Below, piece after piece: positions 22,499 through 64,000 of a stretch of 64,000 nt of DNA. Both the position numbers and the translations under genes were made by a program. Location: NCBI RefSeq assembly GCF_020520425.1, contig NC_079488.1, positions 20,276,247 through 20,340,246 on the forward strand, given 5' to 3'. The DNA is from Spinacia oleracea (taxonomy: Eukaryota; Streptophyta; Magnoliopsida; Caryophyllales; Amaranthaceae). Numbering within the stretch: the stretch's first letter is position 1; each line of letters opens with the position of its first letter. The notes under the pieces are model-generated. The model made no database searches. It worked only from the letters and a program-made list of their open reading frames with translations, and had not been told where the DNA came from.

Positions 22499-22597
22499 TA
22501 CCCATGTACAGCCAAGATGGCTGTACCCGTTGCCCAAAACGACGCGCAGTGTCGTTTTTCGTAAAATACCCAGGTACATCCAAGTTGGTTGTACCCC
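22499..22597. repeat. Pair of palindromic 30-bp units, candidate MULE terminal or transposase-binding motif
   Basis: Two diverged copies of TACCCANGTACANCCAAG followed by a complementary arm (TGG.TGTACCC) occur at 22499-22529 and 22567-22597, 68 bp apart. Each is a perfect or near-perfect dyad around GTACA.CCA. They lie just upstream of the Ulp1-gene promoter, where the left end of the large element is expected. The link to the element is an inference. Confidence 0.45.
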
Positions 22598-22615
22598 CTA
22601 CCATTGTGGGGTAGA

Positions 22616-22933
22616 TAAATTTTTTTTTAAAAATGGCACGTGAGGATAATAATTTCGCGCAGGAATCGCCTATAAATACAATAAAAAAAGAAGAAAATCA
22701 TTTCGAAAACCGTTCAAATTCTCAGCACACAAAAAATTTTCTCTCTCCTCCGCCCACTCATCTACGTTGATTGCTTTCTCTCTCCTAAAACCGCCATTAA
22801 ACTTCCTGCAACCACCTCAATTTACTTTCTCTCTCTTCAACCCGCTACTAATCTTCATTATTTAAGCTGAATTTGCAGAAAATATCAAGAGAAGAAATTT
22901 GTGCCTTCTTTTTGGTGAAAAAAAAGGAGAAAA
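22616..22933 (+). promoter_or_regulatory. Promoter and 5' UTR of the Ulp1-like gene
   Basis: A TATAAATA box at 22671-22678 is followed by a CT-rich leader (22735-22860, with many CTCTC words) and an A-rich Kozak region just before the ATG at 22934. A CACGTG G-box core lies at 22637-22642. This is a typical plant class II promoter layout. Confidence 0.5.
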
Positions 22934-23560
22934 ATGGATATTCGAGATGAAATTGACATGAACAAGCTACAAAATCCAACGAAAAGCAAAAAGTAAGTAA
23001 TTAGAAATGATTCTGATATTTCGATTTTATTTTCGAACTAAATATGAAATCTAATTTTGCTTATTTTCGTTCTATTTCAGAAAAACGAAGATGTCGAAAG
23101 AAAAAAAAGAAACGTATGTAATTTAATTTCAGATTTCGTACATGCAACTGTTTAATTAGTTAAATATTTGTTTAATTTAGTTATTTTCAGTATTTTTCAT
23201 TATAATGTTCAAATAATTTCATTATAATGGTCAATTTTTTGGGTTTATGATGTTAACAAACCCTAACTTCTGATTTTTTTTGCTATAGTACTGGAAGATC
23301 TAGTGAAGAGCCAAAAATCGGCACTGAAAAGCAATCAGACATGACGGAGTAAGTTATTTTAAGTTTTCGTAGATAAAATTCATTTTAATTTACATATGTT
23401 CAATCAATTTTATGTTAATGTTCAATCAATTTTATGTTAATGTTCATTTTCGTTGCGTAGTGATTTTACCAAACCCTAACTATTGATTTTTTGGTCACAG
23501 AACTGGACAATACCAAATTGAGAATGAAATTGAAACTGAAAAGCAAATAGACACAGTCCA
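22934..23560 (+). CDS. 5' exons 1-4 of the Ulp1-like gene (short phase-2 exons)
   Basis: Exons 22934-22992, 23081-23113, 23289-23348 and 23501-23560 all end in phase 2 with clear GTAAG/GTATG donors and AG acceptors. The protein starts MDIRDEIDMNKLQNPTKSKK and is Lys/Glu-rich with no recognised domain. Exons 3 and 4 are both exactly 60 nt and encode related peptides (TG....E..I.TEKQ.D), so one arose from the other by exon duplication. The donor of exon 4 now faces the 22.8-kb insertion. Confidence 0.6.
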
Positions 23561-24199
23561 GTAAGTACTAATTTTTATGTTTTTGAATATCTATTTCTAT
23601 TTAATTTACGAATGTGCCGTTTTAGACATTTGATACAATACAAATACAAAATAATGATACATTGTTCATATTCATAGAGATTTAAGAATAATCTTATTGA
23701 TGATTAAAATTTGGATTGGAAATGTCAATTATTTCAAATATTATTATAATAATGTAAATGTGATGAACTTTTGTTGAGTTTTTCTATCCTTTTGTTAGAT
23801 GTTCAATTTATGTGTAAAATGTTCATATTGTTTAAGCTAGATATTCATTTTGGTCTACTGAGTTTTGTTCATTCCTCTGTAAAATAAATTAAGTCGAGAA
23901 CTCATGATAACTATCTTATGCAAAATGTTCAATTGATTATAGCAGAATATTCAATATCTTTTTGAAAAATGTTCATATATTCCAAACTGGATATCCTTTT
24001 TGGTCTACTGAATTTTCTTTAGGAATACTGAATTATTTTGAATGTTATATATATAATTAAAATGATTTGAACATTTGTTCATTCCTATGTCCAAAAAACT
24101 AAGTCCAGAACTCATGATAACTGTCTGTGTGTAAAATGTTCAATATATTTTGATAAAATATTCATTTTTCTTTTTATAAAATGTTCAATATATTAAAAA
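23561..24199 (+). repeat. Intron filled with ATGTTCA(A/T) words
   Basis: The left part of intron 4 has repeated ATGTTCAAT, ATGTTCATT and ATATTCATT words (for example near 23800, 23818, 23926, 23968, 24136 and 24180), nearly all in the same orientation. It ends at the TIR of the 22.8-kb insert. Confidence 0.7.
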
Positions 24200-24462
24200 T
24201 TCTGTGAAGGTCGTCGACTTACGACGACACTCATATTTTTAATTAAATCTCAGCCATTAGTTTAATTGAATAAATCTTAGCCGTCGATAAGTACTATTCA
24301 TCTAAGGCTTGTTTGTTTGTAAAAAACTAAGGTAAGAAATTATTCAAACTAAGGCCGACAAGTATAACTTTAATGTTTTTAAAATTACATTTATGATCCC
24401 TAAACTCCTAATTTGTATCATAAACTAATTATATTGATACCCTTAAAAAAAACTAATTTATA

Positions 24463-25010
24463 TTGATCAAATTTATTTTCATTTCAACCCTAACTACTCT
24501 GTCACTCTCATGCTCTTCCTCTCACCGGAATGCCGGCCACCGTGAGCGAATTCAGATTAAATTTTTGATCCGTACTGTTTTTCGTCACTGTCTCTCCTTC
24601 CACGTGGTTCCCGAAACAAATAAAGGAGAATTTGCAGATCCTCCCCTTCAATTTTGTGTTCTATTATGACGAAGAAGAAGTGAGTTTAATTTGATTTCAA
24701 AATTCATATGATTTTTTTTGGTGTACGATTTCAATTCATATGATGATACTATAAACAATCTAGTTTAAGTAATTCCAAAAGTTTCTCCTTTTGTATTTTT
24801 GTAATTACCCTTTTCTGATTTTTGATCTATGATTTTATTTTGCTTTCTATTTTCCAATTGGATATGCTGTCATATTGAAAATTTATTTTCTGGGGCGATC
24901 ATTAAAATGTATTTTTCTTGCTCTATTTGATGGTATACTTTTGCATTCATGAAATTCATATTTGAATATGTCAGTTGTTTATTTAGTTTGATCTTTTAAG
25001 CAATGCATTT
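24463..25010. other. Inner flank of the composite insertion, no gene recognised
   Basis: A 68-codon open frame (24463-24669) is followed by an intron-like AT-rich stretch. It could be the first exon of a gene once carried by the element (it ends near a GTGAGT at about 24678), but no domain is recognisable. Confidence 0.3.
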
Positions 25011-25019
25011 GATTGAATA

Positions 25020-25500
25020 TGTAGGATTAAGAGGATTTTGACATGATGAATCTGGAAAAGAATGGTTATTATTCAGTTCAGTCCAGTTATTGGACGATTT
25101 TTTACACTTGTGGGAATGAGGAGTCCTCTAGTTAAACTGATTGGAAGTAGCAAGGAATGGTCTTCCAAGGACTAAGGATTTTTTCATTTTGGAAAACATG
25201 TCATGAAGCTATTCCAGCAACACAAGGGGAATAGCTATTTTATGGCCTTTATGGGGTGTTATTAAAGGAGAAAATTGTTTCCCATGCTTTACTGGAATTT
25301 CATATTGCAAGGGTTATATGGGATGGGAGCGAGTTAGGGGAGCCAGTCTTAATCAGGTGCAGCCGTGTAGGAGCTTTTTTGTATTGGGTCATTGGTGTTT
25401 TTAAAAATTTAAATATGGAATATAAAAGGGTGATGAGTTGGATGGCAAAAGAGGTAATACTTGTTTGATTAAGGATGTTTCTTTTATAAATTAGGGTCTT
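25020..25500 (+). pseudogene. LINE (non-LTR retrotransposon) zf-RVT remnant
   Basis: Translated in changing frames, the region resembles the C-terminal zinc-binding reverse-transcriptase tail of plant LINEs: FWKTCHEAIPATQG, then LKEKIVSHALLEFHIARVIWD. The expected Cys-His ladder is mostly lost, and there are stops and frame changes. Confidence 0.4.
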
Positions 25501-25564
25501 ATAGAAGAGGCGCTTAAAAAGTTCCTCCTTGCTGGAAGTTTAATATTCTACCTACCCTATTTTC

Positions 25565-25830
25565 TTGTCTCACTCAAATAAGAGAAATGTTAGTAGTAAA
25601 GCAATGAAGATTGCTAATACAGTTCCACATTTTCTATATCAGATTCATGCAGTTAGTACGGAGTCCTTCCCTGCATCTGAAAGAGCTTCCAGAATTCTTG
25701 TTCGGGGTGGTAATACAGAAATGAAGCCATTTTTTTTCTTCTCGCCTCACTGAGCGCCTGGTCCGTGGCCATGAAGATGTCATGGACCTCATGGTTTCTG
25801 CTGCTGCTGTAAATATTGTCATTATAGTTT
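25565..25830 (+). other. Open fragment of unknown origin, frameshifted
   Basis: A 62-codon frame (SHSNKRNVSSKAMKIANTVP...ASERASRILVRGG) has coding-like composition. After a T run near 25730 a second frame continues with SSRLTERLVRGHEDVMDLM. It looks like a captured exon with a frameshift, but I do not recognise the protein. Confidence 0.35.
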
Positions 25831-25838
25831 TTAGTACA

Positions 25839-27190
25839 CCCTAAATGAATTTTAGGTGCTAACATTTGTATTAAGTATAAAGTAGATATTGGTGATGTTT
25901 AGTACTCCCATAATGTATTTTAGGTGTAATCAATTCTACACGGTTTCGTGAAAAAGTATTTTTTGTACTACAACTAGATGTGGATTTTTATAACTCCTTA
26001 ATGTATTTTGGGCATTACGTAGTGTAACTTGTACTGCATGTATAAGAACTCTATCATTGTTTAGTACTCCCTAAATGTCTAAATGCATATGGGAATTCCC
26101 AACACTTTATTTAGACATCCAGTACTCGCATTTTTTTATTTTATTGATACCTACCCAACTCGATAAGCCATGGCTGGGAAAAAAAGTGTACTCTGAGTAC
26201 TTGTAATCAAGGTTGTTAGGATCTCGATCCCACCTTGGATTAGGGAGGGGTAGGATCGAATCGGTAGAATCGGATCATAGGATCGTAAGATCCTACAAAA
26301 TTGTAAAAAGGAGTAAGAAAAATATTGCTAAATGAATTTATACATATATTTCAAATAATATGGATGCTAAATACATATTTTTTTTCTCACATAATATTGA
26401 TATTTTAAAACCAATATGGCTTCGTAATAATCATATAGATTAGGGAAGCGAAATATTTTCATTTATGAAGTTGGGTTATCAATTTTTAGGCTTAAAGAGA
26501 AAGTTAGGCTATAGGGATCATTTTAATAAGTAAGAAAGTAAGATCAACCGATCCTACACGATCTTGTACGATCCTGGACCAATCTAAGTGAAAAGTAGGA
26601 TCTGACGATCCTACCGATCCTCCTACGATCATGACCGATTCTGCTATGATCCCACCATCCTTGCGGTTCTGCTTGCGTGGATCGTTTTGCAAAAAAATGG
26701 ATCGTAGGATCCTACGACCCGGATCGCGATTCTAACAACAATGCTTGTATTACCTCAATGTGGTTATTTTAGTACTCCTAATTCCTAAATGTACTTTTGG
26801 CATTACCAATTAGTACTCTGTAACTTGTATAAATCTTTGCTATTTGTTAGTACTCCTTAAATGCATATTGGACGTTTCGAATTGTATACAATGTAGATTG
26901 CAGATGTTTGGTACTCCCACAAGTGTTTTAGGCGTAGCCAATTCTATTGGATATCATGAAATATTGTACTACGAGTATTTTGTATTACCTAGATGTGATT
27001 TTTTAGTACTCCTTAAATGTATTTTGGGCATCGTCAATTCTATAGTGGTACTATATAAAGCCCCTCTGTGGTTCTTTGGTACTTCCTAAATGTAGATTGG
27101 GCATCCCTAATTATATACTCCATATTAATTTAATTACAATGTTTATTGCTCCCATAATGCATTTTAGGGATACCCAATAGGTTTAGGTTT
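25839..27190 (+). repeat. Degenerate minisatellite with TTTAGTACTCC...AAATGTATTTT units
   Basis: About a dozen copies of a unit of roughly 60-70 bp (TTTAGTACTCC, a few bases, TAAATGTATTTTRGGCAT, then a variable part). Examples start near 25839, 25899, 26058, 26768, 26847, 26908, 27005, 27073 and 27140. A MITE-like element at 26212-26739 splits the array. Confidence 0.6.
26212..26739. mobile_element. MITE-like inverted-repeat element (about 528 bp)
   Basis: The left end GTTGTTAGGATCTCGATCC is matched at the right end by the inverted GTTGTTAGAATCGCGATCC. Inside, both flanks carry multiple GGATCGTAGGATC-type words in mirrored order. No ORF and no clear TSD. It interrupts the TTTAGTACTCC repeat array. 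Confidence 0.6.
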
Positions 27191-27321
27191 AGGTATACCT
27201 GATTTTAATTTTTATGTCGATATGTTGATCTAGCCATTCCCAACTAGGTAACTCACCATTCCCATCTAAGATTTAGGTATTACCAGACAATTCACTTAAA
27301 AAGAATATTTGACATCCCCCA

Positions 27322-28990
27322 TTAGGGCTGAGCACGGATCGGATATCCGATCCGAAATCAACATTCGAATCGGATATTCGTATCCGAAAATTCAGATATT
27401 TGATATCCGTATCTGATCCGAAAATTTCGGATATCCGATATTCGAATATCCGATTTTTACGGATCGGATAATCCGGATATCAAATATCCGAAATGCTCCT
27501 GTTAGTTTTTCTTCCTGCTCACCATTTAAATTATTTTCTACCAACAATTCAATAAACAAGCTCCTGCTCATAGTTTAAGTTATTTTCTACAAACAAATAA
27601 TAAACAAGGATGGATTATTTCATACAAATATTATAACAACACAAGTACATTTTAAGCCTACAGGTAGTGCTGCCAGCAAGTCAGCAACCTAGCAGGCCAA
27701 AAAAATTAAACCAAAGGTATGCAACTATGCATAAAAACTAGCAGATGCAGTTAGCCATACATCCATACAAGGCAGTGTTGCCAGCAAGTCAGCAACTCGA
27801 AATTACAAGTCTTCGACAACGTTTAGTCGTTTACAGATCTAAACAAGTGAAATATGATAATTATAAATAATCATCAACTGCTGAAACTGATGGCTGCTCC
27901 TCCAATGTGTACAATTCTACAAAAGAAAAAAAAACATATGTTAGTATTTTACTAAGTTAACTAACCAAATAAACTAGAATAAAATGCAACGGAATCTATA
28001 GATTAATTGACTCATTTTGAACAATCGGTCAATTAGTAATAAAGAGATATATTGATATAATCAAACCCGATTTAAGTTGGCTAACTACTAACTAGTGTTA
28101 GAAACTGTTTCTTTTTCCCGTATTTACATTAGTTCCCATTTGGAAGCACATCTTTAGATGTGTATTGTATTCAGAATCTTTAAATGTGCTAGTTGAATCG
28201 TAATTTCTAAATTGCAAAGAAAACAACAGTCGATTAATTAACTAAATAGGAAATTCAGTTTACACAACCATCGACATCATCATTAACACATCAGAACATT
28301 CCCATAAGTCATAACACATAAATTCACCAAATTAAAACTAAAACACTAGAAAACAGAGCAAACTTTACATAATTAGAGAAAAGGGCGATTATTCAGCCAG
28401 AAAAGTCAAATGCAAACTAAAGGATTTAGCAATTACCCGATCAATTGTGTGGTGTGCGATGTCTGGTGGTCGGAGATAGGAAACCAGACGTGAGACGTTG
28501 CCGTGAAGTTGTGAGAGATAAGAGGGTCGGACGCGCGCCGGTGTGAGGTGAGTGTCTCGCCGGCGAGAGATGAGACTGAAGAGAGCCCAGAACTCCAGAA
28601 GGCCAGGAGAGTCAGGAGACTAGAAGAGAGAGAAGGTGAGAGGATTTGAAGTGCGGCGTGAGGGATGAGAATATGAGATAATTTTGAGTTTTAGGGCAAA
28701 GAGTTTATTTGGTTTGACCCTGAAAAATAAAAATAGTGATTCTTTCGGATCTTCAAATCGGATATCCGATATCCGATATTTCGATATCTGCTAATTTTTC
28801 GGATATCGGATATCCGAATTTTTCAAAAATCAACATCCGTATCCGATCCGATATCCGATAATTTCGGATCGGGTATCCAAAAATAATTTCGGATCCGAAA
28901 TTGATTTCGGATCGGATATCCAAAAAAATCGGATCGGATGCGGATCGGGTATTCGGATTTTCGGATTTTCAGATAGTTTTGCTCAGCCCT
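27322..28990. mobile_element. Non-autonomous hAT-like element (1.67 kb)
   Basis: The ends read (TT)AGGGCTGAGC and, inverted, AGGGCTGAGC. A perfect 8-bp duplication ATCCCCCA flanks it (27314-27321 and 28991-28998), the hAT signature length. Both subterminal regions are dense in self-complementary GGATATCCGA words, which are likely binding sites. The middle has no transposase frame. Confidence 0.8.
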
Positions 28991-29121
28991 ATCCCCCATC
29001 ACATAATTTATTTAATTTTTATTTAAATCGGAACCTTAACGAGTTTCCATCTTAAAAGGTTGTTTTGTTTTTGTGCGACCCTTCTTAGGCCCTGTTCTGT
29101 TCCACTTTTGTGCGACCCTTC

Positions 29122-29400
29122 TTAGGCCATGTTCTGTTCGACTTATCTTGACTTATATCAGACAAAATAAGTTCAGATAAGTTCAGATAATATAAGTTCA
29201 GCAAAAAAAAGATATTTTCAGACATTTTCACACACAAATAAGTTTATTTCAGACAAAATAAGTTTTTTCAGATAAAATTAGTTAAAATAAGTTCAAATAA
29301 GTTCAGATAAGTTCAGTTAATTTCAGATAAGTTCAGATAAATTCAGTTAAGTTCAGATATTATAAGTTCAGTAAAATAAGTTCAATAGAACGAAGCCTAA
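29122..29400. mobile_element. Short MITE rich in AAGTTCAGATAA words
   Basis: The left terminus TTAGGCCATGTTCTGTTCGA and the inverted right terminus TTAGGCTTCGTTCTATTGAA form imperfect TIRs, with TA at both borders. The interior is mostly AAGTTCAGATAAGTTCAG repeats. A 38-bp tandem copy of the left end (from about 29068) suggests a partial duplication or second insertion. Confidence 0.5.
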
Positions 29401-29454
29401 TGAACGGTAGACAACAAATAATTTTAAATTATCCTTTTTCCATGTTTCTTTATA

Positions 29455-30676
29455 CGGATTTTTCATGAAATGCCCCTGAGGTTTGTGTTAATGCACCAAA
29501 TACCCTTAAACTTTCCAAAATGCACCAAATACCCCCGAGATTTAGTATAAATACACAAAATGCCCACAAGGCTAACGGACGTTAAGTCCCCGTTAGCGTA
29601 TGTTTACATTTTTGCCCTTAATAAACCGTTTTCTTTATTTATCCTAACATTAACCCTTAATTATATTAATTAACCTTAATTACATTAACTAATCCTTAAT
29701 TAAATTAATTAATCCTTAATTAAATTAATTAACTATTGTCTGAAAAAACCAATTACCCCAAAAAAATTTGGATTCTCCATTCCAACCTTGTTGTTGCCTT
29801 TGTTCTGTCTCCTCAAGTCCCACCACCACCATGTCAAACCCCTAATTCCTCTCTCTCCATTATCAACACCAACCATAGCTCCATCCTTGCAACCACCTCC
29901 ATCCTCACAGAATCAACGAATTAGAGGAGAGAGAATGCAGCCATGCCGCCACCACCAAACCCCACCACCGCCATGCTACCACCATCAAACCCCACTCCCC
30001 CTTCCTCACCGGCGGCGTTTCCCTCCCCTCCCCCACCTTACCCACTGCTGTCGCCACCACCAAACCCGCGTTTCCCTCCCCCTCACTTCCCCCACCTCCC
30101 TCATTCCCCACTGCCGCCGCCACCAAACTCCACTTCGCCTTCCTCGCCGGCGTCGTTTCCCTTCCCCTCACTTCCCCCTCCGTTACGGTCAAGGCAACTG
30201 GCAACAATGGTTGATTAAAATCCCCCATTACTGATTTGGGGATCAATTTTTTGGGATCTGGATTTTGAGAGAGGAAAATCGATGTATGTGTTTGTCTAGC
30301 GGTGGCGGTGGCGGTGTGGGGTGGTGGTGGTGAGGAAGAGAAGGGGTTAGCATGGCGGTGTGTGGTGGTGGTGAGGAAGAGAAGAGCTGTCATGGTGCTT
30401 CCAACCCAGAAAAATTGGCTGCCATTTTTAACAGGGAAGAAGGAAGGGGGGAGAGAGAAAAACAAATGAAAAAAGAAGAAATTAAAAGGAAAAGAGAAAA
30501 ATTAAATTAAATTAAAGTTAAAGTTAACGGATAAGTTAACGGAGTTAACGGAAAATAGTCATTTTGGGCATTTTGTGTATTTATATTAAACCTTAGGGGT
30601 ATTTGGTGCATTTTGGAAAGTTTAGGGGTATTTGGTTCATTAAGACAAACCTCAGGGGCATTTCATGAAAAATTCG
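29455..30676. mobile_element. Non-autonomous MULE with long TIRs and a 9-bp TSD
   Basis: TIRs of about 120 bp or more begin CGGATTTTTCATGAAATGCC on the left and CGAATTTTTCATGAAATGCC inverted on the right. A perfect 9-bp duplication TTCTTTATA flanks it (29446-29454 and 30677-30685), diagnostic for Mutator-like elements. The interior encodes only proline-rich low-complexity frames (CCACCACC/CCGCC words), so there is no transposase. The TIR sequence is related to that of the MULE at 35922-37737. Confidence 0.85.
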
Positions 30677-30949
30677 TTCTTTATATTTTGGTAAATGGTA
30701 TATATCAAGTACTCCGTATATAGGAAACAAATAATTAAATAATTAGTTGAAACTAATTTAAAATCGCAACACAATATAGAACTCACTATGCTCAAATACG
30801 TATAGAGAGTATTAAAAAAAACGTCACTTGACTTATACATAATTCAGTATGCCTAAAATGCTATTAAGGATTACTAAAAGTAGTCAGTTGTGGTTTCTCA
30901 GAGAGAGTAAACTGGAGGAAATTGATTTGTAGAATGCCTTTTCATTGGT

Positions 30950-31195
30950 CGGCTCGCTATTTTGAATAGGCTAGCTACATTTGACAGGTTGGGTAAGTTT
31001 GAAGTCCAATGCAACTCTGTTGGTGCCTGAGAATGTCAAATATTTATTTTTCATTTGTTTCTATTCTGCTGAAATTTGGAACAAGGTCTTGTGTTGGTTG
31101 AGAATTAATAGAAGTATTGAGAACTGGAGCAAGGATTTGGTTTATGCCTCTGCTTTTAAGGGGAAGACTGCTCTACACCAGGTATATTGAATGGG
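30950..31195 (+). pseudogene. LINE zf-RVT tail fragment
   Basis: The peptide ...ENVKYLFFICFYSAEIWNKV is a recognisable match to the HLFF.C.YSA.IWN part of the plant LINE zf-RVT domain and is followed by CWLRINRSIENWSKD. Only about 70 codons remain, without a start or flanking RT domain. Confidence 0.5.
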
Positions 31196-31640
31196 TTTTA
31201 TGGTTGTAGTATCATTTTTTTTTAGTAACTTTTACTAATGTAAAATTATAATTATTAACAGTTAAAGTAGTGCATTGAAGACCACACATATGTAAAAAGT
31301 GAGGAACATTATGGAACGGAGGGAGTAATATTTTTTTACAACTGATCAATTTGGATATGCCCAAAGTATATTACGAATATATCCATTGGAGCACAATTTA
31401 ACTAGAAAATTAAATAGCTTGAAATCTTATATGACATAACAAGCTAATTGTCAAATTAGCTTGCCATTGGAGATGAACTTAGTGATTTTGAAAGGATATT
31501 TTTTATTAAAATGAAAAATTTTATCCCTAAAAAATATATAACTTTTATATTATATCGGGTTAACTTTTAATCATTTTGAGTAATTAACTTTACTTCAATA
31601 AGAATTTGGGAGTAATAAAAATTGTCAATTGACATAATGT
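31196..31640. other. AT-rich spacer with a stray MITE-like end
   Basis: No gene. The words GGAACGGAGGGAGTA at about 31313-31327 match one end of Stowaway-like elements, but the mate at the other end was not found, so it may be a truncated copy. Confidence 0.4.
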
Positions 31641-31659
31641 AATTAAATGTGCCAAATCG

Positions 31660-31990
31660 GTCACCGGATGAATTATGGGTTTACATGAAAGTTCGGGTCT
31701 ATTCGTTTCGAGTTAATTTCGTGTCAAAAGTTTTCCGAATCAAATCAGGTTTGGGTCGGCTCTATTTAGTTCGGGTCAATTTCGGGCCAATTATTGTCGG
31801 ATCCGGGTCGACTTCCGGTTGGGTCAAGTCCGGACCAGGTGAAACCGTGTTGGGTTCCAAACGTATGTGGTCGGGTTAAACTCGGGTCGGGTAGACATTG
31901 GCTCGGGTCCTTTCAGTTTTGGAAGATTCAAGTCAGATCAATTCATTACCCGTTCGATTATGGTTCGAGTCATTTCGCTTAGGTCTCGAA
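31660..31990. repeat. Degenerate GGGTCGGGTC-type repeat
   Basis: Many imperfect GGGTC(A/G)(A/G)(T/G)T words in one strand. A second patch of the same kind lies at 35160-35560. The open frames across both patches are by-products of stop-poor repeat sequence, not genes. Confidence 0.55.
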
Positions 31991-33384
31991 GGTTGGTTTG
32001 ATTTAAGTCTAGATCTTTTCAAGTCCTTATCGATTAATTTTTTTCATTCTATTTCTAATTAATAAGCTATTAACCTAAGTCTTTACGAGTATTTTTAATT
32101 TATTGGATTACAACAATGTTATATTAATTAGAGTTTGCAATAAGTTATAAGATGATTAATAATTATATAATAAGAACCAGATGTAAACACTAGACTGCTA
32201 AATAAATCTAAAGAATATAACTCTTTAAGTTTGAAACAAAATCAAAGTCACTAAATAACTAATGATTATTTTCTATTAGAACATACTTCATAAATATACT
32301 CCAACTAAATCTAAACAACTACTCTATATAACTTATCACATTAATTCTTTAATTTACTAGTTGTTCTAACAAGCTTAGATAACATAATACTCATTTGTAT
32401 ATCATAAATTGGATCATATATATCATTTACCATTTAATGTTTATTACTCGTATACAAGTACTAAACCTAGGAAATAGCTCTAGTGTTAAACTGTTAACAA
32501 TCAAAATGTTCTAAAAGTGTATCTCTATGCTATAAGTATACAACAAGACAATAACGAGAATCTGCAAATTTTAGATTTATAAGTATAACAACTAGCCGAC
32601 AATAACTTATCACACAAATTTTTCAATACTTCATTAGTTCAGAAAGTTATTAAGCAATTAGAGCCCATTAGAATTTAATGTATTGAAGACAAATAGACAA
32701 CACATATCATTAGAGATCAATGTGTTGAACGACTAATATATATTATGTAGAGTTTTACTTATACTCATATAAGACTACAAGTATAGTAGTTATCTAGTTA
32801 CTACTATGTAGTTGCTTAGTTAGTTACACTTAGAAGCTATAACTTATAAATATAAGTCTAAAAGAGTATAAGACTGATAAATTAATAAGATTATAACTTA
32901 TACGGACTATAAGTTACACTTAATATAAAGCAAAAATGACTATAAGTGATAAATCTCAAAAGCTAACCAAAATTGGTTCAAACTATATGTTTATAACTAT
33001 ATAACCCTATATGAAGAATATCACTACATAAAATTATAATCCTATAAGAACAAGTCTATAATTATATAACTATATAGTTGACTATAATTAAGTGCCAATG
33101 AATTGTTTTAAACATTTCGAACAACAATGACTAGGATTGGTTTAGTTTTCCACATATTCAATTACTTTATGTTTAATTGACCGCAAATTAGACAAATTTA
33201 GTTCAAACAAAGTAATGTAATACTCTGTTGAGTACATTGCATCGAATCGTATCATTAGTTAAACAAGTTCAAAGAATTATGAGTTGCGAATCAACTAAGC
33301 TCAAATGATAAACATATTATACACTCAATTTTTTAGTTTCGAAAGTCATATGATTTGTATTGAGTCATGAACCAAAAAATAGTA
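31991..33384. other. AT-rich region without recognisable gene
   Basis: Very AT-rich, with many degenerate 'tataacta'/'ataagtta' words, especially 32740-33080. No open frame or terminal repeat pattern could be supported. Confidence 0.5.
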
Positions 33385-33718: not shown

Positions 33719-33720
33719 TA

Positions 33721-50726: not shown

Positions 50727-50811
50727 GTAAAAATAAAAATACTTGAATGAATCTATGTAATTTATTTTTATTCTTATTATTCCTGCATTAATTTTTGGTT
50801 TTGTTAATCAG

Positions 50812-52519: not shown

Positions 52520-52840
52520 GTATTACTAAATACATCACATTCTAATAGATTAAAGTTAATTCTTCTGCAAAATATAAATATGTGTAATATTAATCTTATG
52601 TTCCTTCCTTTAATATGTTAAATAATATTTTTAGAACATATATAAATAAATGTTCATAACCCTTTGCTTAAATGTTCTTTATTTTTGCATATAATGTTCA
52701 TACCTCTCTAAGAAATATAATAACATAATGAAGAATTAGTGCATTATATAGTAATAAAATGTTCAAACCTCTTTAGTTATTTATTCAAACTGTATCAATA
52801 AATGATAAAAATAAGTGTTCAAGCCTCTTTACTTATATAT

Positions 52841-54271: not shown

Positions 54272-54403
54272 TATATTGTGTATGTACACAAGTGTCATTC
54301 AGTATATATAGTTGTTCATACTTTTACTTCTAAAAGATCAAACTGAAACACCTAAAAGTTTACTATTCCCTAATGTATGTCAATTGGTTTTAAAACACAT
54401 GAG

Positions 54404-55427
54404 TTCATAGATGAGTTTGTGGGTATAATTCAAGTTGTTGGTGACAATTTGTCAAAGCTTTCTGATTCACTGAAGAAGGTGCAAGAATTCTTCCCAGGAA
54501 ATGAGTTGGTATCTAAAGTGGAAGAGTTCTTGTCAAAAATGGAAAAAGAACCATCATTAAGCCAAGATGAGTGGTCTGATGACTTCATTAAGGCTCTATT
54601 GGAGAAAGAAAAAGAGTTGTTGGATGCAATTAATCTGGAGAAAAAGAAAGCACAAAAGGATAAGCAGAGATATGAGTATAATATCAAGAATGCATTCGAC
54701 TTGGGACTTTCATCATCACCGATGGTAGATGATGACAAGTTGAAAGGTGAGAAAGCTGGTACATCCACCTCTACGCCAAGTTTTTCACTGGAAGAAATAG
54801 ATGAATCTTTGGCTTCTGCTATGCTGAATCTAAAACAAAGAAGGGAGGAAGAGAAAAAAGAAAATGAAATTGCAAAAGCTAAGAAAATGATGCAAGCAGA
54901 ATCAGAAGTGAGTGAACCAGCTTTAGAAGAACCAAAAACAACAGTGGAGCAGATTGTTGTACAACCAGAGGAGATTGTGAGCTTGGATGCAGCTACAGTG
55001 GAGACTGAGTTGCATGTATCAGAAATGATGCCTGCAACTAATGTAATTCAAGAGGAGCCTGCACCAGAAGTGAGAAGTGAAAAGGATCCTGCACCACAAG
55101 TGATTGAGAAGAAGGTTACACCAGATGGGGTTGAGGAGCAGCCTGCAACAAATAAGACAAATGAAAATGCTGAACCACAAGTGCTTGAGAATAAGGTTGC
55201 ACCACAAATGGTTGAGGAGCCAGCAGAACCTCATACTCCTACACAGGCGCAGGTGCAACAAGCAGTGGAAGCTGAACTATCTATTGGTGTTGAACAATCT
55301 TCTCTTTCTTCACCAAAAACTCCATTGAATGAAGTCTCAATATCAACATTAATTTCAAGCACAAAAACAGATTTGAAATTGGACGAAATTTTTGAAGACA
55401 AAGGAGAAAAAAAGATGAAGAAGAAGG
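54404..55427 (+). CDS. Ulp1-like gene exon 18: charged linker exon
   Basis: A 1024-nt exon starting FIDEFVGIIQVVGDN (acceptor AG at 54402-54403, phase 0) and ending KKMKKKG with a GGTAAAT donor (phase 1). Residues 1-100 look helical. The segment KDKQRYEYNIKNAFDLGLSS is closely related to the last exon of the minus-strand FAR1 gene. The second half has repeated (A/E)P.V.E/PQV.E units. No enzymatic domain. Confidence 0.65.
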
Positions 55428-55437
55428 GTAAATTTTA

Positions 55438-55930
55438 ACTGTATTTAGACTGAATTTGTATTTGTGAAACTTTGGTTATATTATGAAAACTATTTTAAAG
55501 ACATAATAATGTTTTGGTTATTTAAAATGTCATGATTTAATTTTTTAATCTTTTTGTTTTTCGTTAATATTCATTCTTTTTATACGTTTTGTTCAAACGT
55601 GTTAAATACGTTCATACTCTTCTATTTTTTGTTCTTTCTTTTTCAAACTTGTTAAATTCTTGGATCATTCTTCTGGAATGTTATGTTCTTTCTTTTTGTA
55701 CTTTTGGTTCATTCTTTTACTTTATATGTTCATATTTTAAAATTTTTTGTTCTTTCTTGTTCAAACCGGTTAACTTCTTGGTTCTTCTTCTGGAATTTTA
55801 TATTCTTTCTTGTTGAATTTTTTATCTCTTTATTTATCTTATATGTTCATACTCTTAATCTTATATGTTCATACTCTTAATCTTATATGTTCATTTTTAT
55901 AATTATGTTGATTTTTTGTTAAATTTTTAG
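55438..55930 (+). repeat. Intron with TTCTTTCTT / TGTTCATA words
   Basis: This intron is T-rich with repeated GTTCATTCTTTT, TGTTCTTTCTT and ATATGTTCATACTCTTAATC units, the last in two or more tandem copies near 55840-55890. Confidence 0.6.
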
Positions 55931-55939
55931 TATATACAG

Positions 55940-57552
55940 AAATGAGAAAGGTGACAAAGGAAAAAGACCCCAAAGGATTCACAAACTACAGGCTGCCTTC
56001 TCTTCTCCATATTTGGTCAAGTATCGAGACTTGTTCAAAAATCTGGACACAATGCATCAAAGCCTAGCAGATTATGTCTTAAGTGGTCAGGACAACATGT
56101 ATTTTCTTTAATTTCACGTAAAAATAATTTAAAATTTAAATTCTTATACTTTCTCCTAATTTACTTCCTGTTTGTAGTGAGGTTCTTTATTATGATGGAT
56201 ATAACTACATCAATAGAGAGGACATGAAAACACTGGTTGATGAAGCGGAAGTGGTTGACTGTGTGATTGATTCATGGTCAAAGTATTTAAATGCAAAGGG
56301 CCATAAAGATAAACTCTTCCTTTCAACAGTTCCATATGTAAGTATAATAATTGATGTTATTTAAAATGTTCATTTTGTTTATATAAAATGATCATTTTCT
56401 TAAAAAGAATGTTCAATATTAAAACAACTAATGTTTAATATATTTAAATAGAATGTTCATAATTACAATACATAATGTTCAAAATTTTGAAATGGAATAT
56501 TCATTATTGAAATAATTAATGTTCAACAAAATTAAGATAACAAGTACGAATGATTAAATTGAAATGTTCATCATCATTGTAATTAATTTTACATATCTTT
56601 ATAATTGAATGTTCATTATCTTTAAATGCAGCATATAATGTGCACAAACAAGGTATGTCCAGCAGGATCCTCCTACGAAAAAAGGCTTGATGATTTTAAA
56701 AGCAGGATTAACGAAGAACTGGATAACTATAATTTCAAAAACATTCATCAATTTAAACAGGTAAACCTATATAACTTCTAAACCATTCCAAAAACTTTAA
56801 TGTTCATTTTAATGTATATAATTATTCATTGTTTTAACTTAAATAATTACCTCTTTTTCAGATATTCATCCCCGTTCTTGCTGCAAAACACTTCTATCTC
56901 CTAGTCATCAACCATTACACTAAAACTGTGGATGTAATTGACAACAGGCCTCTACCAAGAAATGTAAAATTTGAAGCTAAATACGAGGGCCACCCAGAAG
57001 TTGTGGTAAGAAATAAATCATTCTTAAATGTATATTTGTAAAATCAAAGATATTTATCTTACTATTATGAACATAAATTCCAGATGGATGCTTTTGCAAA
57101 ATATATGGGCACATTTGGTTATGAGATAGAACCAATGCAAAAGTATGAAATGAATTTTCTCAAGATGAAATGGAGAAGCATGAAAGACTATACAAACTGC
57201 GGTGTGTATGTCATGAAGCACATGGAGACCTATACTGGTGATCCAGAACATGAATGGATCTGTGACTTGAAGGCAAATGATGTAAGTTGAATTTTGTTCA
57301 TTCTTCTTTTGTATTTTGTTCATTTATTTTTATTGTTTTGCTCTTTTCTGTTTTATTGTTCTCTCTGTTGAATTTCTTTTATATTCCTCATTTTATAATT
57401 TAGTATTTGGATTTTATAAAACATTTTTAATTTTTTTTTTAATTTATGATATACAGACAAATCAAATAAGGAAGCTTCGTGTCACTTTCTGTGGTCTCCT
57501 AATGCTTTCAAAGCAAAATGAAAAGCATGAGTCAAACATAAATGAAGCATGA
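55940..57552 (+). CDS. Ulp1-like gene exons 19-24: C48 cysteine-protease domain
   Basis: Exons 55940-56098, 56178-56337, 56632-56760, 56862-57005, 57084-57281 and 57457-57552. From exon 20 on every junction fits. The domain reads VVDCVIDSWSKYL (helix before the core), then IFIPVLAAKHFYLLVINHYT with the catalytic His, VDVIDNRPL with the Asp, and DYTNCGVYVMKHMETY with the catalytic Cys. This is the deSUMOylase fold of Ulp1/SENP proteases, which cleave SUMO precursors or conjugates. The stop is TGA at 57550. Exon 19 (KRPQRIHKLQAAFSSPYLVK) needs a different phase from the one exon 18 supplies. The protease core itself looks undamaged. Confidence 0.82.
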
Positions 57553-58254
57553 AGGAGTTAATGAAAAATTAAGCAGTTGTAAGAAGGTTAACAAACAAAA
57601 ATAGATTTTTAGTACAATGTAAAGTAAATATTTTGGTATTTTGGTGGTTTGTTAAAAAACATATAACTTGGTGTTCATTTCTTTTATGTTTAATATTCAG
57701 TTTCCTTTGCAGTATTAAATCAAATGCACAAAAAAATTTGCAACTCAATAATGCATACAAAATAAATATTTATTAACTGCTTGATTTTATGAAAGTTATA
57801 TATAATGATTAATATCGTTAAACAATGTTCATTGTAAAAATAGGTAATAATCAATATGATTCATAGAACGTTCAATTATTAAATTACTAATATTCATTGT
57901 ATTTCAATAAAATGTTCATTTCTAAAATACTTAATGCTCAAAATTTTCATATAGAATATTCACTTTGAAATACGTATTGTTCAAAATCTTTAAACAGAAA
58001 ACACATTGACAAATACGTATTGTTCAATATCAAGTGGAAACAAAAGTAGATAATGTTGAATATATTTGACTAAAATGTTCATAAACTTCAGAAGGATGTA
58101 TTAAAAAAAATAAAAAAAATTCAAACATAAAATATTATGAAAAATAGTGATGTTCAAAATGTTTGACCTCAATGATCATTCTATTAAAACTAAATGTTCA
58201 AACACAAAAAGATTCAGTACAGATAAATGCACGTACAAATTTTCAACTCAATAA
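57553..58254. repeat. Spacer between convergent Ulp1 and FAR1 genes, ATGTTCA-rich
   Basis: About 700 bp of AT-rich sequence between the two stop codons. ATGTTCATT/ATATTCA words from about 57880 on keep the same strand as elsewhere. No gene. Confidence 0.65.
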
Positions 58255-58770
58255 TCAATAGTTACTAAATCCTTGACTTTTAATGGCTTTTTCAGCAGCC
58301 ATTGATTCATCAAAAAGAGCTAAAAATGCATCATACTTAAATTTCAAATAAGCTTGATCAATAGCAGATTGATGAGATCCTTTAGTACCCAACGGAGGTT
58401 TAGTAACCAATGAAACTTTAGGTCCTTGAACCTTAGGTCCAACTTGAGTAATTTTTTCAGCCTGAATAGATCCTTCAACTTTAGGTACTACTTGAATAAT
58501 TTCTGAAGCATGAATAGGTCCTTGAACTTTAGCTTCAGTACAAGATGGAGCTTTAGTAACCATCGGTGATGGTGAAAGTCCCAAGTCAAATGCATTCCTG
58601 ATATCATACTCATATCTCTGCTTATCCTCTTTTGCTTTAGTAGCCGATGTTCCTTTAGTAGCCGATGGTGCTTTAGTAGCCGATGGTGCTTTAACTTTGG
58701 TACATGCATCGGTTTTAGTACTTCCATGAACATATGAATCATTTGAGGTTTCATTTGTTGAATTGTTTTC
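58255..58770 (-). CDS. Putative last exon of the FAR1 gene with Ulp1-related segment
   Basis: An open 516-nt exon with a TTTTAG acceptor just before 58770, in phase 0 with the exon ending at 58852. It encodes three KAPSATK-like units (58638-58700), then EDKQRYEYDIRNAFDLGLSP, which matches exon 18 of the Ulp1-like gene. Repeats of the type VQGPIHASEI / VEGSIQAEKI follow, and a C-terminal helix ends FDESMAAEKAIKSQGFSNY. No enzymatic domain. Confidence 0.5.
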   Translation of the reverse strand, partial: ENNSTNETSNDSYVHGSTKTDACTKVKAPSATKAPSATKGTSATKAKEDKQRYEYDIRNAFDLGLSPSPMVTKAPSCTEAKVQGPIHASEIIQVVPKVEGSIQAEKITQVGPKVQGPKVSLVTKPPLGTKGSHQSAIDQAYLKFKYDAFLALFDESMAAEKAIKSQGFSNY

Positions 58771-61524
58771 CTAAAATTGACACAAAATGTAAAGACATTC
58801 AAAAACAGAAATTTAAATATTCATTTTAAAGAATTAAATATTAATATTTACCTTATCCGATGATTCTACATTTTTATCAACATCAGCACCTCTTCTAAAA
58901 TATTGGAGCTGGCTTCGGAAAAGAAGCATCAACCTGAAATAATATAGTGATCATTTATCAGATAATAATGTTAATATATTTATAACTAAATGTTCAAACT
59001 TTGCAAGGAAATCAACCTAAAATAGTGAAGGATCTAGTACAACTAGATTAGATGAGTCATTAAGAGAATTAGAGAAAATCACAGGGGCACCAACTTCATC
59101 CAACTCCAGCAAAAACCAAGCAAAAAAAAAAAAAGAAAAAAAGAATGTTCAATTAGTTATGAGCAAATGATCAATTTATAAAACAAATATGTTCAATATT
59201 AATAAATATTTACCATGACTGCAGATTTAGCCTTAAACCTTGTTGCACCTGTAAATTTTGCTTTTCTCTTCCTCCAATTCCCTTTAGCTTTATTGTAGAT
59301 TTTCTCAACTGTACTCTTCAATCTGTCATTCCTCTCACCTTTTTTCCTTAAATTCTGTGGGTTTTTTTACTAAGGGCACAAAGATATCTTCACCCACTTT
59401 AGGATCAGAAAAATCAATAGTACCCCTAATACTCTCCACTTTTTCTTTTAAAAGACCAAAGGCAGAATCAACCTCAGCCCTAGCTTAAAGAGAATCTTGA
59501 CTAGACATAACAAGCTTAACAAAATTCCTAAGGGTTTGTGCCCTCCAAACAGAAGCCGCAACTATATTGGACTTTTCACCATCATCTTCAACCAAATGAC
59601 TGCACATAGCCGCTTTTGTCCACCTCTTCAATATATAGAGATTGGGAATCTCTGGGACACAATGCACATGATAAACACGAAGCGCATGAGAACATAAAAA
59701 ACCCATTTCAGTAAAGTACTGACAAGTACAATCCACTGAAAAAGTCTCGTGGTTAAACTGAACTTCATGTTTAATCAAGTCTTTTTTAGGCCTCCACACA
59801 TAATAACTTTTCTCTGTAGCTGTGTTTCCGCGTTTTTCTTCTTGAGAACATGCCATCCCTTTAAGAAATTGTTCTTCAAACAAAACATATGCTTCTATAG
59901 TGTAAATCTTTCTCGCATGAAGAAGAATTCCGCAATTTGCAGCTGCAACTTCTGGTCTACCTTTCCAATTTCTGTATTCATGACCATTCTCTTTGCTCCT
60001 CCACTCAGAAATAACATCCAAAAAAACATGATAAAAATCACATAACCCTTGTGTCTTATCAAGTCGATGGGAAACTGACTTGTTGGTAGTTTCACAACGC
60101 TGTGATGATAACACACCACCAGACCAATAGTTCTTAGAATAAGCAGGACACCACATCTCTCTGATTGTATATAAATTCTTCAACCATGGATTTTCAACGC
60201 ATTTATAGTGAGTCAACATTCTGAAAAACAAAATGTTCAATATAAACATCAAATTTGTTCATCAGAATATACCTATTTGTTCAGAGTCAGAAAAAGCATA
60301 TAACTTAGTATTTACATGAAATACTAAAATGTTCATTTCTTTATAAGTAGATATTCACAAGGTTACAAGTACATATTATTTATTAATTTGAAGTAAATAA
60401 GTAATCCAAATTAATTACCTTGGCCAATGATATTCAAATTCAGCAGCAGTTTCACAATACTTCAGAAGATAATTGAATATGTCAGAAAAACCATCTAAAG
60501 CTCTATATTGCCCAATATGCTTCTTTGAATTCTCCCCAATATGCCACGTACATAATCTATGTCTAGCATCTGGAAAAACATTCCTTATCCCGGCAACAAC
60601 GGATGGAGCTTGGTCTGTCATAATGGTTATTGGGGGATTTCCACCCATTGATGTAAGGAAAGTTTGAAAAAGCCAATTAAAAGATTCTGTTTTTTCATTG
60701 ATAACAAAACCCATTCCAAACATAACATTATTAGAATGATGGTTCATACCAACAAAAGGAGCACAAATCATATCATATTTATTGGTCCTATAAGTAGTAT
60801 CAAAAATTAATAAATCCCCAAAATAATCATAATCTCTCTTCATCCTACCATTACGCCAAAAGAAACTTAAAAGTCCGTCTTCTTCACTAAGCTCAAAGTC
60901 ATAATAAAAAACCTTCTTCACTGGAATTTCTCTGAGCAAAATACTTGATTAACTGATGACAGTCATGACCTTCAAGTTTATTGGCTTTTGCACGTGATAA
61001 AGCATTATAAGTATCACTAGCTGTAAAACCGACCATAGGTGATCCGCCTACTTCTTTCCTCAAAACCCTCAAGGTATCAGACACTTTAACACCACTAGCT
61101 TTTAAAGTAGACATAAAGTAAAGAGCCTCCTTACTAACCTTCCTTTGTGATCTTATCAAATGCCTCTTATTTAGAGGAACCATAGCATGATTATGAATCA
61201 TATTATGATTCACAACCGTCCACACACCATCCTTACCAATAGAAAACTGAACAAAAGCAGTACACCCAGTACGCGTATCCAATCTAGCATAAGACCTTGT
61301 TCTCTTCCTTTTTTCATCTTTAACCCCTTCGCAGCTACACAAGAACCGTTTCATAGTATAAAGTTCACTGTTTTGACGCTTCCGACCTTTCCCAACCCTA
61401 GTACCAAAACCTTTACTAAAAGCATATTCATTATACAAATCATAAGCTTCGTCTTCATTTTTAGCTTCCTTCATCATTAACATAGATTCTGACCCTTCAA
61501 CAAAAAGACTTACTTCCTTATTCA
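58255..61524 (-). pseudogene. FAR1/FHY3-type MULE transposase, frameshifted, 5' part outside window
   Basis: Exon 61524-60419 begins mid-gene (acceptor CAG, phase 1) with the FAR1 DNA-binding region (AYDLYNEYAFSKGFGTR, CSCEGVKDEKRK, DTRTGCTAFVQF). It then enters the MULE transposase core (FDTTYRTN, TDQAPSVVAG, CTWHIGENSKKHI). Exon 60220 onward continues in phase and holds the SWIM finger (CTCQYFTEMGFLCSHALRV). Lesions: a one-base frame change near 60930-60945 within KYFAQ/REIPV; an in-frame TAA at 59485-59487 with the frame open beyond it; and a further frame change near 59350 before a basic tail (RKKGERNDRLK). Small exons at 59017 and upstream, 58933-58852 and 58770-58255 follow; the last codes for KAPSATK repeats and the Ulp1-related segment. 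Clearly a decayed transposase. Confidence 0.85.
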
Positions 61525-61604
61525 CTGCAAATGGAAGAAATGGTCAATGTTAAAATAGTGATTGTTCAATGTTAATATAGTGAATGATCAATTTCAATAA
61601 TAAC
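61525..61604. other. FAR1 intron, left part
   Basis: Intron sequence upstream (on the minus strand) of the FAR1 exon, with two ATGTTAA/GTTCAATGTTAA words, ending at the MITE target TA. Confidence 0.5.
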
Positions 61605-61606
61605 TA

Positions 61607-62035
61607 CTCCCTCCATTTCTTTTTGATGTATCCATTTGGAATCTGGTGTGATTTTTAAGAAAATTGGAATATTGGTTTGTATGGATATAAGTGTAATAAT
61701 TGGGTGTAAGAGAAATGATTGGGTGTAAGAGATTATAATAAATAAAGGAGTGAGAAAATAATAAAGAAATAAGGTAAGAGAGAGGAGTGATAATGATGGG
61801 TGATAAAGGAGGTGAGAGAGTGAGTATATGGGGAAGGGAAAAGAATTAAATATTATGGGTGGGGAAAATTAGGTGGGAATATGGGTAGAATCTTTAGGTA
61901 TTTTGGTAATTAGATAGAAATGTAAGGGTATTTTAGGATAAAATGTATGTCCAAAAATAGAATAGATTCTAAATGGATACAACAATATGAAATGCTTAAA
62001 ATAGAAACGGATACAACAAAAAGAAACGGAGGGAG
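61607..62035. mobile_element. Stowaway-like MITE (429 bp)
   Basis: CTCCCTCCATTTCTTTTTG at the left and inverted CTCCCTCCGTTTCTTTTTG at the right, with TA on both sides (61605-61606 and 62036-62037). Subterminal 'gtatccatttgga' and its inverted copy agree. It lies in a FAR1-gene intron and has no ORF. Confidence 0.85.
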
Positions 62036-62037
62036 TA

Positions 62038-62563
62038 ACATTTTGAAATTTGAAATGTTCAATATCCTTAAATAAAATGTTCAATATTAAAATAGTAATG
62101 TTAAAAATATTAAAATAGAATGTCCATTGTTTAAATAGGTGTTGTTCAATGTACTTAAATAAAATGTTCATTACGAACATAGGTAATATTCAAAATCATT
62201 AAATAAAATGTTCATTTTAAAATATTAATAAAGATAAAATACTTGAATAAAATGTTCATTGTAACATAGGTAATGATCAATAACTCTTAATAGAAAGTTC
62301 AACATAATACAATAGAATGTTCATTATCTAAATAAAAAAGATACAATATATTTCAATGCAATGTTCATTACTAATATACGTAACATTCAAAGTCATTAAA
62401 TAAAATGTTCATTATTATTGTAGACAATGTTCAATTTCCTTGAACTGAATATTCATAATTTGTTAAGAATGTCATAACTAAACAATGAACAATTTTTTCT
62501 TTTGGGACAGAACAATTCAAAAATTCATAACATAATATGTATTTTATCAAAATATATAATGTT
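62038..62563 (+). repeat. ATGTTCA(A/T) word array
   Basis: About ten exact ATGTTCA words in 525 bp (62055, 62079, 62163, 62207, 62250, 62317, 62361, 62405, 62426 among others) and no TGAACAT that I can see. Each is followed by A/T-rich spacer ('aatattaaaatag', 'attattattgtag'). The gene on this side runs on the minus strand, yet the word keeps its plus-strand orientation. Confidence 0.8.
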
Positions 62564-63980
62564 TGACAAGGCTGTCGCGTGCCTATCAAAAATAACCTAA
62601 CTAGACCTCCTAACTATGTAGTCGGGCAAGTAAGGGTCGAATCCCAAGAGACTAATGTATTAAAAACTAGCTAAACTGACTTGAATTAATACTAAGTGAG
62701 TAACCAAACAACGATTTAGAACGGATAATTAAACTAATTCTAGCTAAAAACGTAATTAATAATAATACTAAAGTCAAGGATTAAAAACACATAGAGTTAA
62801 GCATCACCACTAGCATAATCAATGTAAAGATAAATTCCTACCCCAAACTAATTAAATAAATATTCACGAGTAAAGGTAAACCTTAAATAATACCATAAAC
62901 CTCTCCCGAGTATCAATGGCTTCCCTAATATGCAATCAAGACCTACTCCCGTGGAATCATGCAAATAAAAGACATTAAACTCAATACCGTAATTTCCTAA
63001 CAATCCCTTCTACCTACTCCCGTGGAGAAATTCATGTCCTTAATTGAAATATTCAAATCCGTCAAAACCCAACTCCCGTTACGATAAAGACAATGGAATG
63101 ATAACAATACTAATTATCGCTAATCTAGTATTGAAGATTGTACAATCAATTAAGCAAGAACAATTAAATAATTAAATTGGGGATTTAAGGGAATAAATCA
63201 TACATCAATCATGACTAGGGTTTACCTAACCCTAGATTATAAATCTACTCACACATATTAATATTAATTAAACAAACTAAATAATATATTAAGGAGAACA
63301 TAACTAATGATAATAGACGATATAAGCGAAAGCAACAACACTTGTTAATTAAGCTTTGAATTGAATGATAATTTTGTTTCAAAAACCAAGAAACAAGGTC
63401 AAACTTACGTAATTGAACCAAAATAAGACTCCAAGCTCACAACTCACGTCAATCTACGAAAAATAATCAAACAATGAAAAAATGCAGTACACCCTCGCTA
63501 GCATTCTGATAAAAATCGACGGAAGAAGATTTAGGTATTCTATACTACTTGTATTTATACCTAGGCATAATAAGAAGTATACTAGTTATTAAACTCTAAT
63601 AATTAGCTCATTAAACATTCAATACGGGACCGAGAGAAGGCTGCCACGGCTCGGGTGTGGGATGTAAAGTAGGCCACGGGTACGCCGTGGTATTGGCTGC
63701 CCGGTGTTCTTGTATTTGTCTTGAACTCTTGTTTATAACACAATGTAAACACCTTGTAAACGTGGGTGGCTCATAGACATCGTACACTCGTACTCACTCT
63801 ACCAACATCTTCTATGAGGTCTACCAACTTGAGTTATTTCCTACAAAACAAAATAAAACAAACACAGGAGAGAAACATCAAAAATAACGAATAATAGCAC
63901 TTTAAGATTAAAATATGAAAGAAATATGACAGACAATGGACTAATATGGCACATAAAATGCGTATATTATTGTGTTATCA
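62564..63980. mobile_element. Solo LTR (1417 bp) with TSD ATGTT
   Basis: It starts TGACAAGGCTGTCGCGTG and ends GTGTTATCA, and ATGTT lies directly on both sides (62559-62563 and 63981-63985). It has no coding region. The TSD cuts one ATGTTCA word, and the ATGTTCATAAG sequence resumes after it. Strand and superfamily could not be fixed. Confidence 0.8.
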
Positions 63981-64000
63981 ATGTTCATAAGATCTGAGCT
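63981..64000 (+). other. Giant MULE sequence resumes at window end
   Basis: ATGTTCATAAGATCT shows that the host element continues past the solo LTR and past the end of the window. Confidence 0.6.

Follow-up and report, generated by a model that had tools for sequence, protein, structure and literature searches.

A FAR1-domain Mutator-like element of spinach with a convergent Ulp1-like gene and phased arrays of a family-specific word

The DNA analysed here, called the window throughout, is a stretch of 64,000 nucleotides of Spinacia oleracea (NC_079488.1, positions 20,276,247 to 20,340,246 of the forward strand), and much of it belongs to one Mutator-like element (MULE) that runs from 22,483 to 64,612, its right end lying 612 bp past the window. 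Two genes of this element converge, with 702 bp between their stops (57552-58255): a gene for a protein with an Ulp1-like (C48) protease domain at its C-terminus and a part resembling the plant mobile domain (PMD) at its N-terminus, and a transposase gene on the opposite strand (Table 1). Family 1 denotes the family of this window copy, and its uninterrupted copy at C3:151944427-151960828 (16,402 bp) serves as the reference. The original prediction, made from the window alone, had claimed a Ulp1-protease gene at 22934-57552 on the plus strand, a FAR1/MULE transposase gene on the minus strand, about 700 bp between their stops and an intron-filling word common to both, and these claims were borne out. 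The start codon at 22934, the first exon and the end of the last exon at 57552 were found, and about eleven of the ~24 predicted exons of the Ulp1-like gene were placed by eye, with GT-AG borders at its 3′ end; its joined C-terminal exons (pieces of the uninterrupted copy and one window exon) match Pfam Peptidase_C48 with an E value of 1.1e-4 (22.6 bits, cut-off 20.7). The window transposase matches FAR1 (E 2e-19; 3e-19 in the uninterrupted copy), MULE (E 1e-28) and SWIM (E 2.5e-4, 20.9 bits, cut-off 19.6) profiles, and by these domains the element is assigned to the Jittery-type (FAR1 domain) Mutator-like DNA transposons. The strand bias and the 22-bp phasing of the word array, which had gone unnoticed, are the more interesting part.

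The genome searched comprises 894,210,420 bases in 242 contigs. The best 40 matches were scored out of 162 for protease-end DNA, 309 for FAR1 DNA, 4830 for the right flank and 154 for the left end, and all copy counts given here are scored places among the matches listed; with fragment rows dropped, 38 protease places were kept from 67 rows and 38 FAR1 places from 48. The protease-end query is matched over its full length in 30 rows, the window included, at 83-100% identity, and the further rows among the best 40 of 162 are weaker or partial. At 35 of the 38 protease places, a convergent FAR1 match lies on the opposite strand within 30 kb downstream, and the protease gene is likewise present at 35 of the 38 FAR1 places. 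The distance between the two is 678-804 bp at 24 of the 35 paired places and 1.65-23.2 kb at the other 11.

The two genes also have common ends. Family matches to the right-flank query end at ~64612 and those to the left query begin at ~22483; the left end is present at 27 of the 38 protease places, the right end at 25 and both at 24. Twenty right ends and 17 left ends that match them were retrieved, and the 17 flank pairs show a 9-bp target-site duplication (TSD) that is exact in 14 cases, has one mismatch in two and is ambiguous in one; in some copies with an exact TSD, the boundary sits a few bases from the consensus end. The TSD pair of the window copy itself (GTCCTTAAC/GTACTTAAC) matches at 8 of 9 positions. 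The terminal inverted repeats (TIRs) are diverged, aligning over ~115-135 bp under permissive local alignment, with a best ungapped core of 31 bp at 87%. Both checks proposed with the original prediction, a right terminus with a TSD and genome-wide co-occurrence, thus gave positive answers, and the two genes almost certainly move as a single unit with shared ends and TSD. Chance adjacency of the genes is ruled out by their co-occurrence and the TSDs, and the single capture of a host gene in one copy by the 30 rows that span the whole protease query and by three other families that carry the gene. At each terminus (22483 and 64612) lies a pair of palindromic GTACAGCCAAG-TGGCTGTACCC-type units with a short spacer, possibly a recognition structure for the transposase.

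A giant element of more than 41 kb had been predicted. This length holds for the window copy (42,130 bp), which consists of a 16.4-kb element and ~25.7 kb of nested inserts, but not for the family, since 14 of the 24 two-ended copies measure 16.27-16.58 kb and the remaining ones 15.7-42 kb; the giant size is mostly due to the inserts.

The word is TGTTCA. The protease-sense strand of the uninterrupted copy has 100 instances of it and the other strand 7, against a mean of 9.4 and a maximum of 21 on the protease-sense strand in dinucleotide shuffles (n=200). Adjacent words stand exactly 22 bp apart in 27 of 99 cases, with further peaks at 44 and 66, and 69 of 137 pairs are phased, compared with no more than 34 in 1000 jitters. 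Counted by region (plus/minus), the first 470 bp of this copy hold 0/0, the protease gene 69/4, the part between the stops 12/1, the transposase gene 9/2 and the right non-coding part 10/0. Sense words start after 740 bp and end ~620 bp before the right end, and one opposite-strand match falls in the first kb. On either side of TGTTCA, at a distance of 22 bp, a degenerate second word is kept, and most of the spacer between them carries little information. The word is also far above chance in the window, where AATGTTCA occurs 41 times against 1.6 expected in a region set of mostly non-insert parts. Over the whole window element, TGTTCA is found 95 times on the plus strand (two in inserts and three in exons or open frames on an incomplete list) and 17 times on the minus strand (six in inserts). 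Four control stretches were drawn from host, insert and flank DNA; their top four 7-mers, simple-repeat words left out, reach at most 12 copies and at most two spacings of 21-22 bp.

Other copies of family 1 keep this pattern. In 30 oriented copies, ATGTTCA occurs 10-21 times on the sense strand and 0-2 times on the other. Three short two-ended copies of 3.5-4.7 kb, flanked by TSDs, have lost nearly all coding sequence: of the protease gene they retain just the 5′ part, and of the transposase frame no more than its first ~130 bp. They nevertheless have 26, 35 and 37 words, with 3, 3 and 4 on the other strand. These internally deleted copies (C3:49456050-49459502, C4:7446420-7450657 and C6:64168867-64173579) are 97-98% like the uninterrupted copy in the main match, and because they are so alike, they were probably moved in trans not long ago.

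Three related families were found in the same genome. A search with the Pfam C48 profile gave 34 rows, 21 of them with a common profile span, and all five fetched from these 21 show the array of family 2. At the family-2 locus read at length, the transposase is 43% identical to that of family 1 in the main match, the two genes are convergent, and the word, TTAGTTA, occurs 102 times on one strand and 9 on the other, with 48 of 101 spacings exactly 21. A protein search with the transposase, in which the best 109 of 1838 candidates were scored, yielded families 3 and 4, with one copy of each read. In family 3, the transposase is 64-65% identical, the locus is filled with retroelements, and TGTTCA is sparse, at 17/4 by strand in 6 kb, with 5 of 16 spacings at 21-22. 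In family 4, the transposase is ~54% identical and TGTTCTT is found 101/91 times in 14.1 kb, where 36 of 100 spacings on one strand and 20 of 90 on the other are 21-22. Both have FAR1 and MULE domains and Ulp1 exons (by tblastn), and family 4 alone of these two has the N-terminal domain. TGTTCA is common to the two closest families, and TGTTCTT and TTAGTTA belong to more distant ones. At the locus of the other family, the family-1 and family-2 words both stay near background (3/4 and 8/6), and no comparable array was found at three other C48 loci (L001, L003 and L006), the last having one 7-mer 10 times at mixed spacing. ATGTTCA, TGTTCTT and TTAGTTA have a GTT core in common, which might reflect descent of a single recognition domain. 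Taken together, these counts show that the non-coding DNA of the element is filled with a family-specific word that often recurs two helical turns apart; exons hold few such words, and the outermost ends have no sense-strand one.

The protein of the second gene is recognizable across families. The His, Asp and Cys of C48 are present in families 1, 2 and 4, and the Peptidase_C48 match of family 4 is above the cut-off (E 5e-5). In an alignment of the N-terminal pieces of the same three families, 34 columns are invariant. When solved structures were searched with a profile of this domain, two matches came up, to a kinase (E 0.28-0.29), and the C48 composite of family 1 matched SpoIISA_toxin (E 7e-4, 19.8 bits against a cut-off of 27); both were taken as chance. 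An 80-bp segment at 54647-54726 recurs inverted at 58559-58638, 93% alike, and the linker exon of the Ulp1-like gene and the C-terminal exon of the transposase both encode a near-identical peptide, KQRYEYxIxNAFDLGLS; from this shared peptide, one gene seems to have captured an in-frame piece of the other. Elsewhere, three C48-like matches with stops lie ~80 kb apart (C6:114943762, 115022781 and 115103226) and may represent decayed ULP-like genes arrayed in tandem.

Table 1. Features of the element in window coordinates (LTR, long terminal repeat)
Feature	Position	Strand	Remarks
Whole element as inserted	22483..64000 in window		true right end 64612; from right-flank and left-end genome matches and TSD
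TSD, left copy, 9 bp, GTCCTTAAC	22474..22482		right copy GTACTTAAC at 64613-64621, outside window
Left terminal inverted-repeat region, diverged	22483..22610	+	palindromic GTACAGCC...GGCTGTACCC units; counterpart ~64500-64612
PMD-like/Ulp1-like gene	22934..57552	+	many short exons, split by nested inserts here
Word array, left block	23206..24190	+	13 TGTTCA on + from 23206 to 24182; 2 on other strand in bin 22001-24000
Nested insertion block, 22.9 kb	24195..47055		missing from uninterrupted copy; comprises the nested MULE and copia element below and other insertions; without word array (TGTTCA 2 on +, 6 on -)
Nested MULE, 1.8 kb	35922-37737		263-bp TIRs (99%)
Copia element inside 22.9-kb block	38217-38867 and 45538-46188		positions of its LTRs
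Word array, main body	47079..63987	+	introns, inter-stop gap and right non-coding part; spacing 22 bp and multiples
N-terminal domain exons	50808-51253 and 51904-52261	+	kept in families 2 and 4, with sub-threshold plant-mobile-domain matches there
Insert, 1.43 kb	52842..54270		resembles 1.4-kb repeats of right flank
Long charged linker exon	54374..55426	+	holds 80 bp also inverted in transposase gene
C48 protease core exons	56178..57281	+	His of KHFY, Asp of DVIDN, Cys of NCGVY
Last exon of Ulp1-like gene	57458..57552	+
FAR1-MULE-SWIM transposase gene	58255..61543	-	broken in window copy
Transposase C-terminal exon	58255-58770	-
SWIM domain	within 59485-60258	-
MULE core	60415-60948	-
FAR1 domain	60899-61543	-
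Insert, 1.4 kb	62564..63975		missing from uninterrupted copy; right-flank family matches start at insert edge

Set against the uninterrupted copy, the window copy contains three insert blocks of ~22.9, 1.43 and 1.41 kb. The 1.8-kb MULE within the first appears to hold a fragment of a MULE/SWIM transposase, and the second is a probable solo LTR; in the right flank, at 66.9-87.7 kb of the extended window, retroelements carry inverted and direct copies of a 1.4-kb repeat related to this second insert. The transposase frame of the window copy is split and has a stop that is not in the uninterrupted copy, whose open frames are 375 and 352 codons long, and for this reason the window copy looks dead.

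Words that are phased, family-specific, non-coding and kept in derivatives without the genes resemble the targets of a cooperatively binding protein, and the arrays are probably protein-binding targets. The best overall explanation, modestly favoured, joins the mobile unit, binding of the words by the second protein, and anti-silencing. The second protein, or a complex containing it, would bind successive words along one face of the helix and would thereby mark copies of its own family only. Host DNA methylation would be kept off the marked copies, much as VANC proteins keep it off VANDAL elements, and the Ulp1 domain may strip SUMO from silencing factors at the arrays. Host PMD proteins act in silencing. 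For anti-silencing by the element's own second protein, taken by itself, the chances are judged about even. More tentative, and leaning to the doubtful side, is the general proposal that FAR1/Jittery-type transposons own a self-recognition anti-silencing system outside the VANDAL lineage, in which a PMD-like/Ulp1 protein acts on word arrays two turns apart, words and proteins co-diverge, and the chromatin that a family opens is limited to its own copies and their non-autonomous derivatives.

Several observations weigh against this explanation. First, the word of family 4 is mostly on the plus strand over the protease gene and on the minus strand over the transposase gene, and single-strand orientation is therefore not a general rule. 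Second, the words are kept only modestly more often than other hexamers of the same composition in three diverged copies (45 of 74 against 98 of 214), and comparison with the window copy gives no excess (19 of 26 words and 53 of 77 controls). Third, the features of the protein are partly weak. Gln is usual six residues before the catalytic Cys in the C48 consensus; it is replaced here, so that protease activity is uncertain. The PMD matches are below threshold in family 4 (E 0.015) and family 2 (E 0.069), and family 1 has none; DUF287 is below threshold in family 1 (E 0.012), and DUF1985 was not found in the N-terminal pieces of families 1, 2 and 4 at E values up to 1. Fourth, changes in the Ulp1-like gene at codon positions 1/2/3 number 33/40/56 against another copy (L040) and 25/25/25 against the window copy, and one diverged copy has a coding identity (0.761) below the non-coding one (0.808). 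The weak or absent codon-position bias may, on one reading, mean that most divergence came after insertion, and conservation between families is a better sign of protein function than this bias among copies. Finally, the protein that binds the words could instead be a host factor or the transposase.

The transposase is the foremost rival. The words would then be binding sites of the element's FAR1 transposase, as extended sub-terminal repeats, and the Ulp1 gene would have another role. FAR1 is a DNA-binding domain, a transposase of this type occurs in all four families read, and the word tracks transposase divergence, as the closest family, family 3, keeps TGTTCA (17 and 4 in 6 kb, one copy) and families 4 and 2 differ. 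However, the zone in which transposase binding is expected, the outer 740 and ~620 bp of the uninterrupted copy, is without the sense-strand word, whereas deep introns are full of it, and the termini carry their separate palindromic repeat. Subterminal transposase sites are rejected as the sole explanation by the outer ends, and this rival in its wider form is unlikely. Still less probable are effects on RNA or chromatin for which the element needs no dedicated protein, such as signals for splicing or transcription within AT-rich introns, or nucleosome positioning. A spacing of 21-22 bp is close to two helical turns, and the words of family 4, mostly sense to each gene, weaken the argument from strand that the words act only as DNA. 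Yet the words run antisense through the transposase gene in families 1 (9 on plus, 2 on minus) and 2, in both these families also stand between the stops and outside the genes, and vary in identity among families within one genome. About as improbable is a by-product of local tandem duplication by replication slippage with a favoured unit of 21-22 bp and no selection on the word: some stretches of array are indeed short tandem repeats, and VANC targets likewise grow through tandem repeat formation (part of PMC5735166), but slippage alone would not yield one core on one strand throughout families 1 and 2, and core (6-7 bp) and phase are the same from intron to intron, between the genes and in the right non-coding part, although much of the rest of the unit differs.

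Should the words prove to be bound by the element's own protein, self-specific anti-silencing of the VANC kind would extend beyond the VANDAL lineage, and a role would emerge for the Ulp1 genes found time and again in plant transposons. The protein that binds a given family would be predictable from word and spacing, and epigenome work could use short synthetic arrays as targets.

Among known systems, the union of Ulp1 with a Jittery-like transposase is not new, and the FAR1 partner is not unusual, contrary to the original prediction. Jittery-like MULEs with a ULP coding sequence downstream of a FAR1-type transposase are described in grapevine and, by citation of van Leeuwen (2007), in melon (section on these elements in PMC2528002), and like the spinach element they combine FAR1-type transposase and ULP; word arrays are not mentioned in that section. 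Phased arrays with a change of word from family to family were not found for FAR1-type elements in searches of an open-licence library. The spinach element agrees with Jittery group 36 in its FAR1 N-terminus, MULE core, SWIM and TIRs. This plant group, in the part of PMC6446971 that covers it, is listed with a TSD not indicated or of 8 bp, TIRs of 39-292 bp or none, one open reading frame and no PMD gene; the spinach element differs in its PMD-like second gene, and its TSD is 9 bp long. MUDR, MUDRAVI2, MDR and other MULE groups are listed there with a PMD gene, often antisense, and the PMD-like gene of the spinach element is likewise antisense to the transposase. Its 9-bp TSD fits the Mutator superfamily, 9 nt being typical of plant MULEs according to PMC2528002.

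Kaonashi MULEs (KI / KIU) also have a Ulp1 gene reversed relative to the transposase and, in the part of PMC13317346 that deals with them, are reported to act on their own family through motifs; they are described in PMC2528002 as non-TIR elements with mudrA, whereas the spinach element has diverged TIRs and a FAR1 transposase. According to a review, VANDALs that carry Ulp1 likewise remove methylation from their own kind by way of motifs in non-coding DNA (PMC13317346), and RNA-directed DNA methylation targets the non-coding regions of VANDALs (PMC10398659, in part). VANDAL belongs to another MULE group, and VANC carries DUF1985 and DUF287, whereas the spinach element, judged by its domains, has no VANDAL-type transposase and combines a FAR1 transposase with a protein that is PMD-like at its N-terminus and Ulp1-like at its C-terminus. 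A fixed spacing of 21-22 bp is not stated for VANC targets in the Results and Discussion of PMC5735166. Nevertheless, the targets of VANC21 and VANC6 in Arabidopsis VANDALs are the nearest known case (Hosaka et al., 2017, PMC5735166, same sections): as in the spinach element, a second gene stands beside the transposase, and short, dense, co-oriented and family-specific words occupy mainly non-coding DNA in a manner like tandem repeats, a likeness that in co-orientation covers families 1 and 2 as a whole and family 4 by region only.

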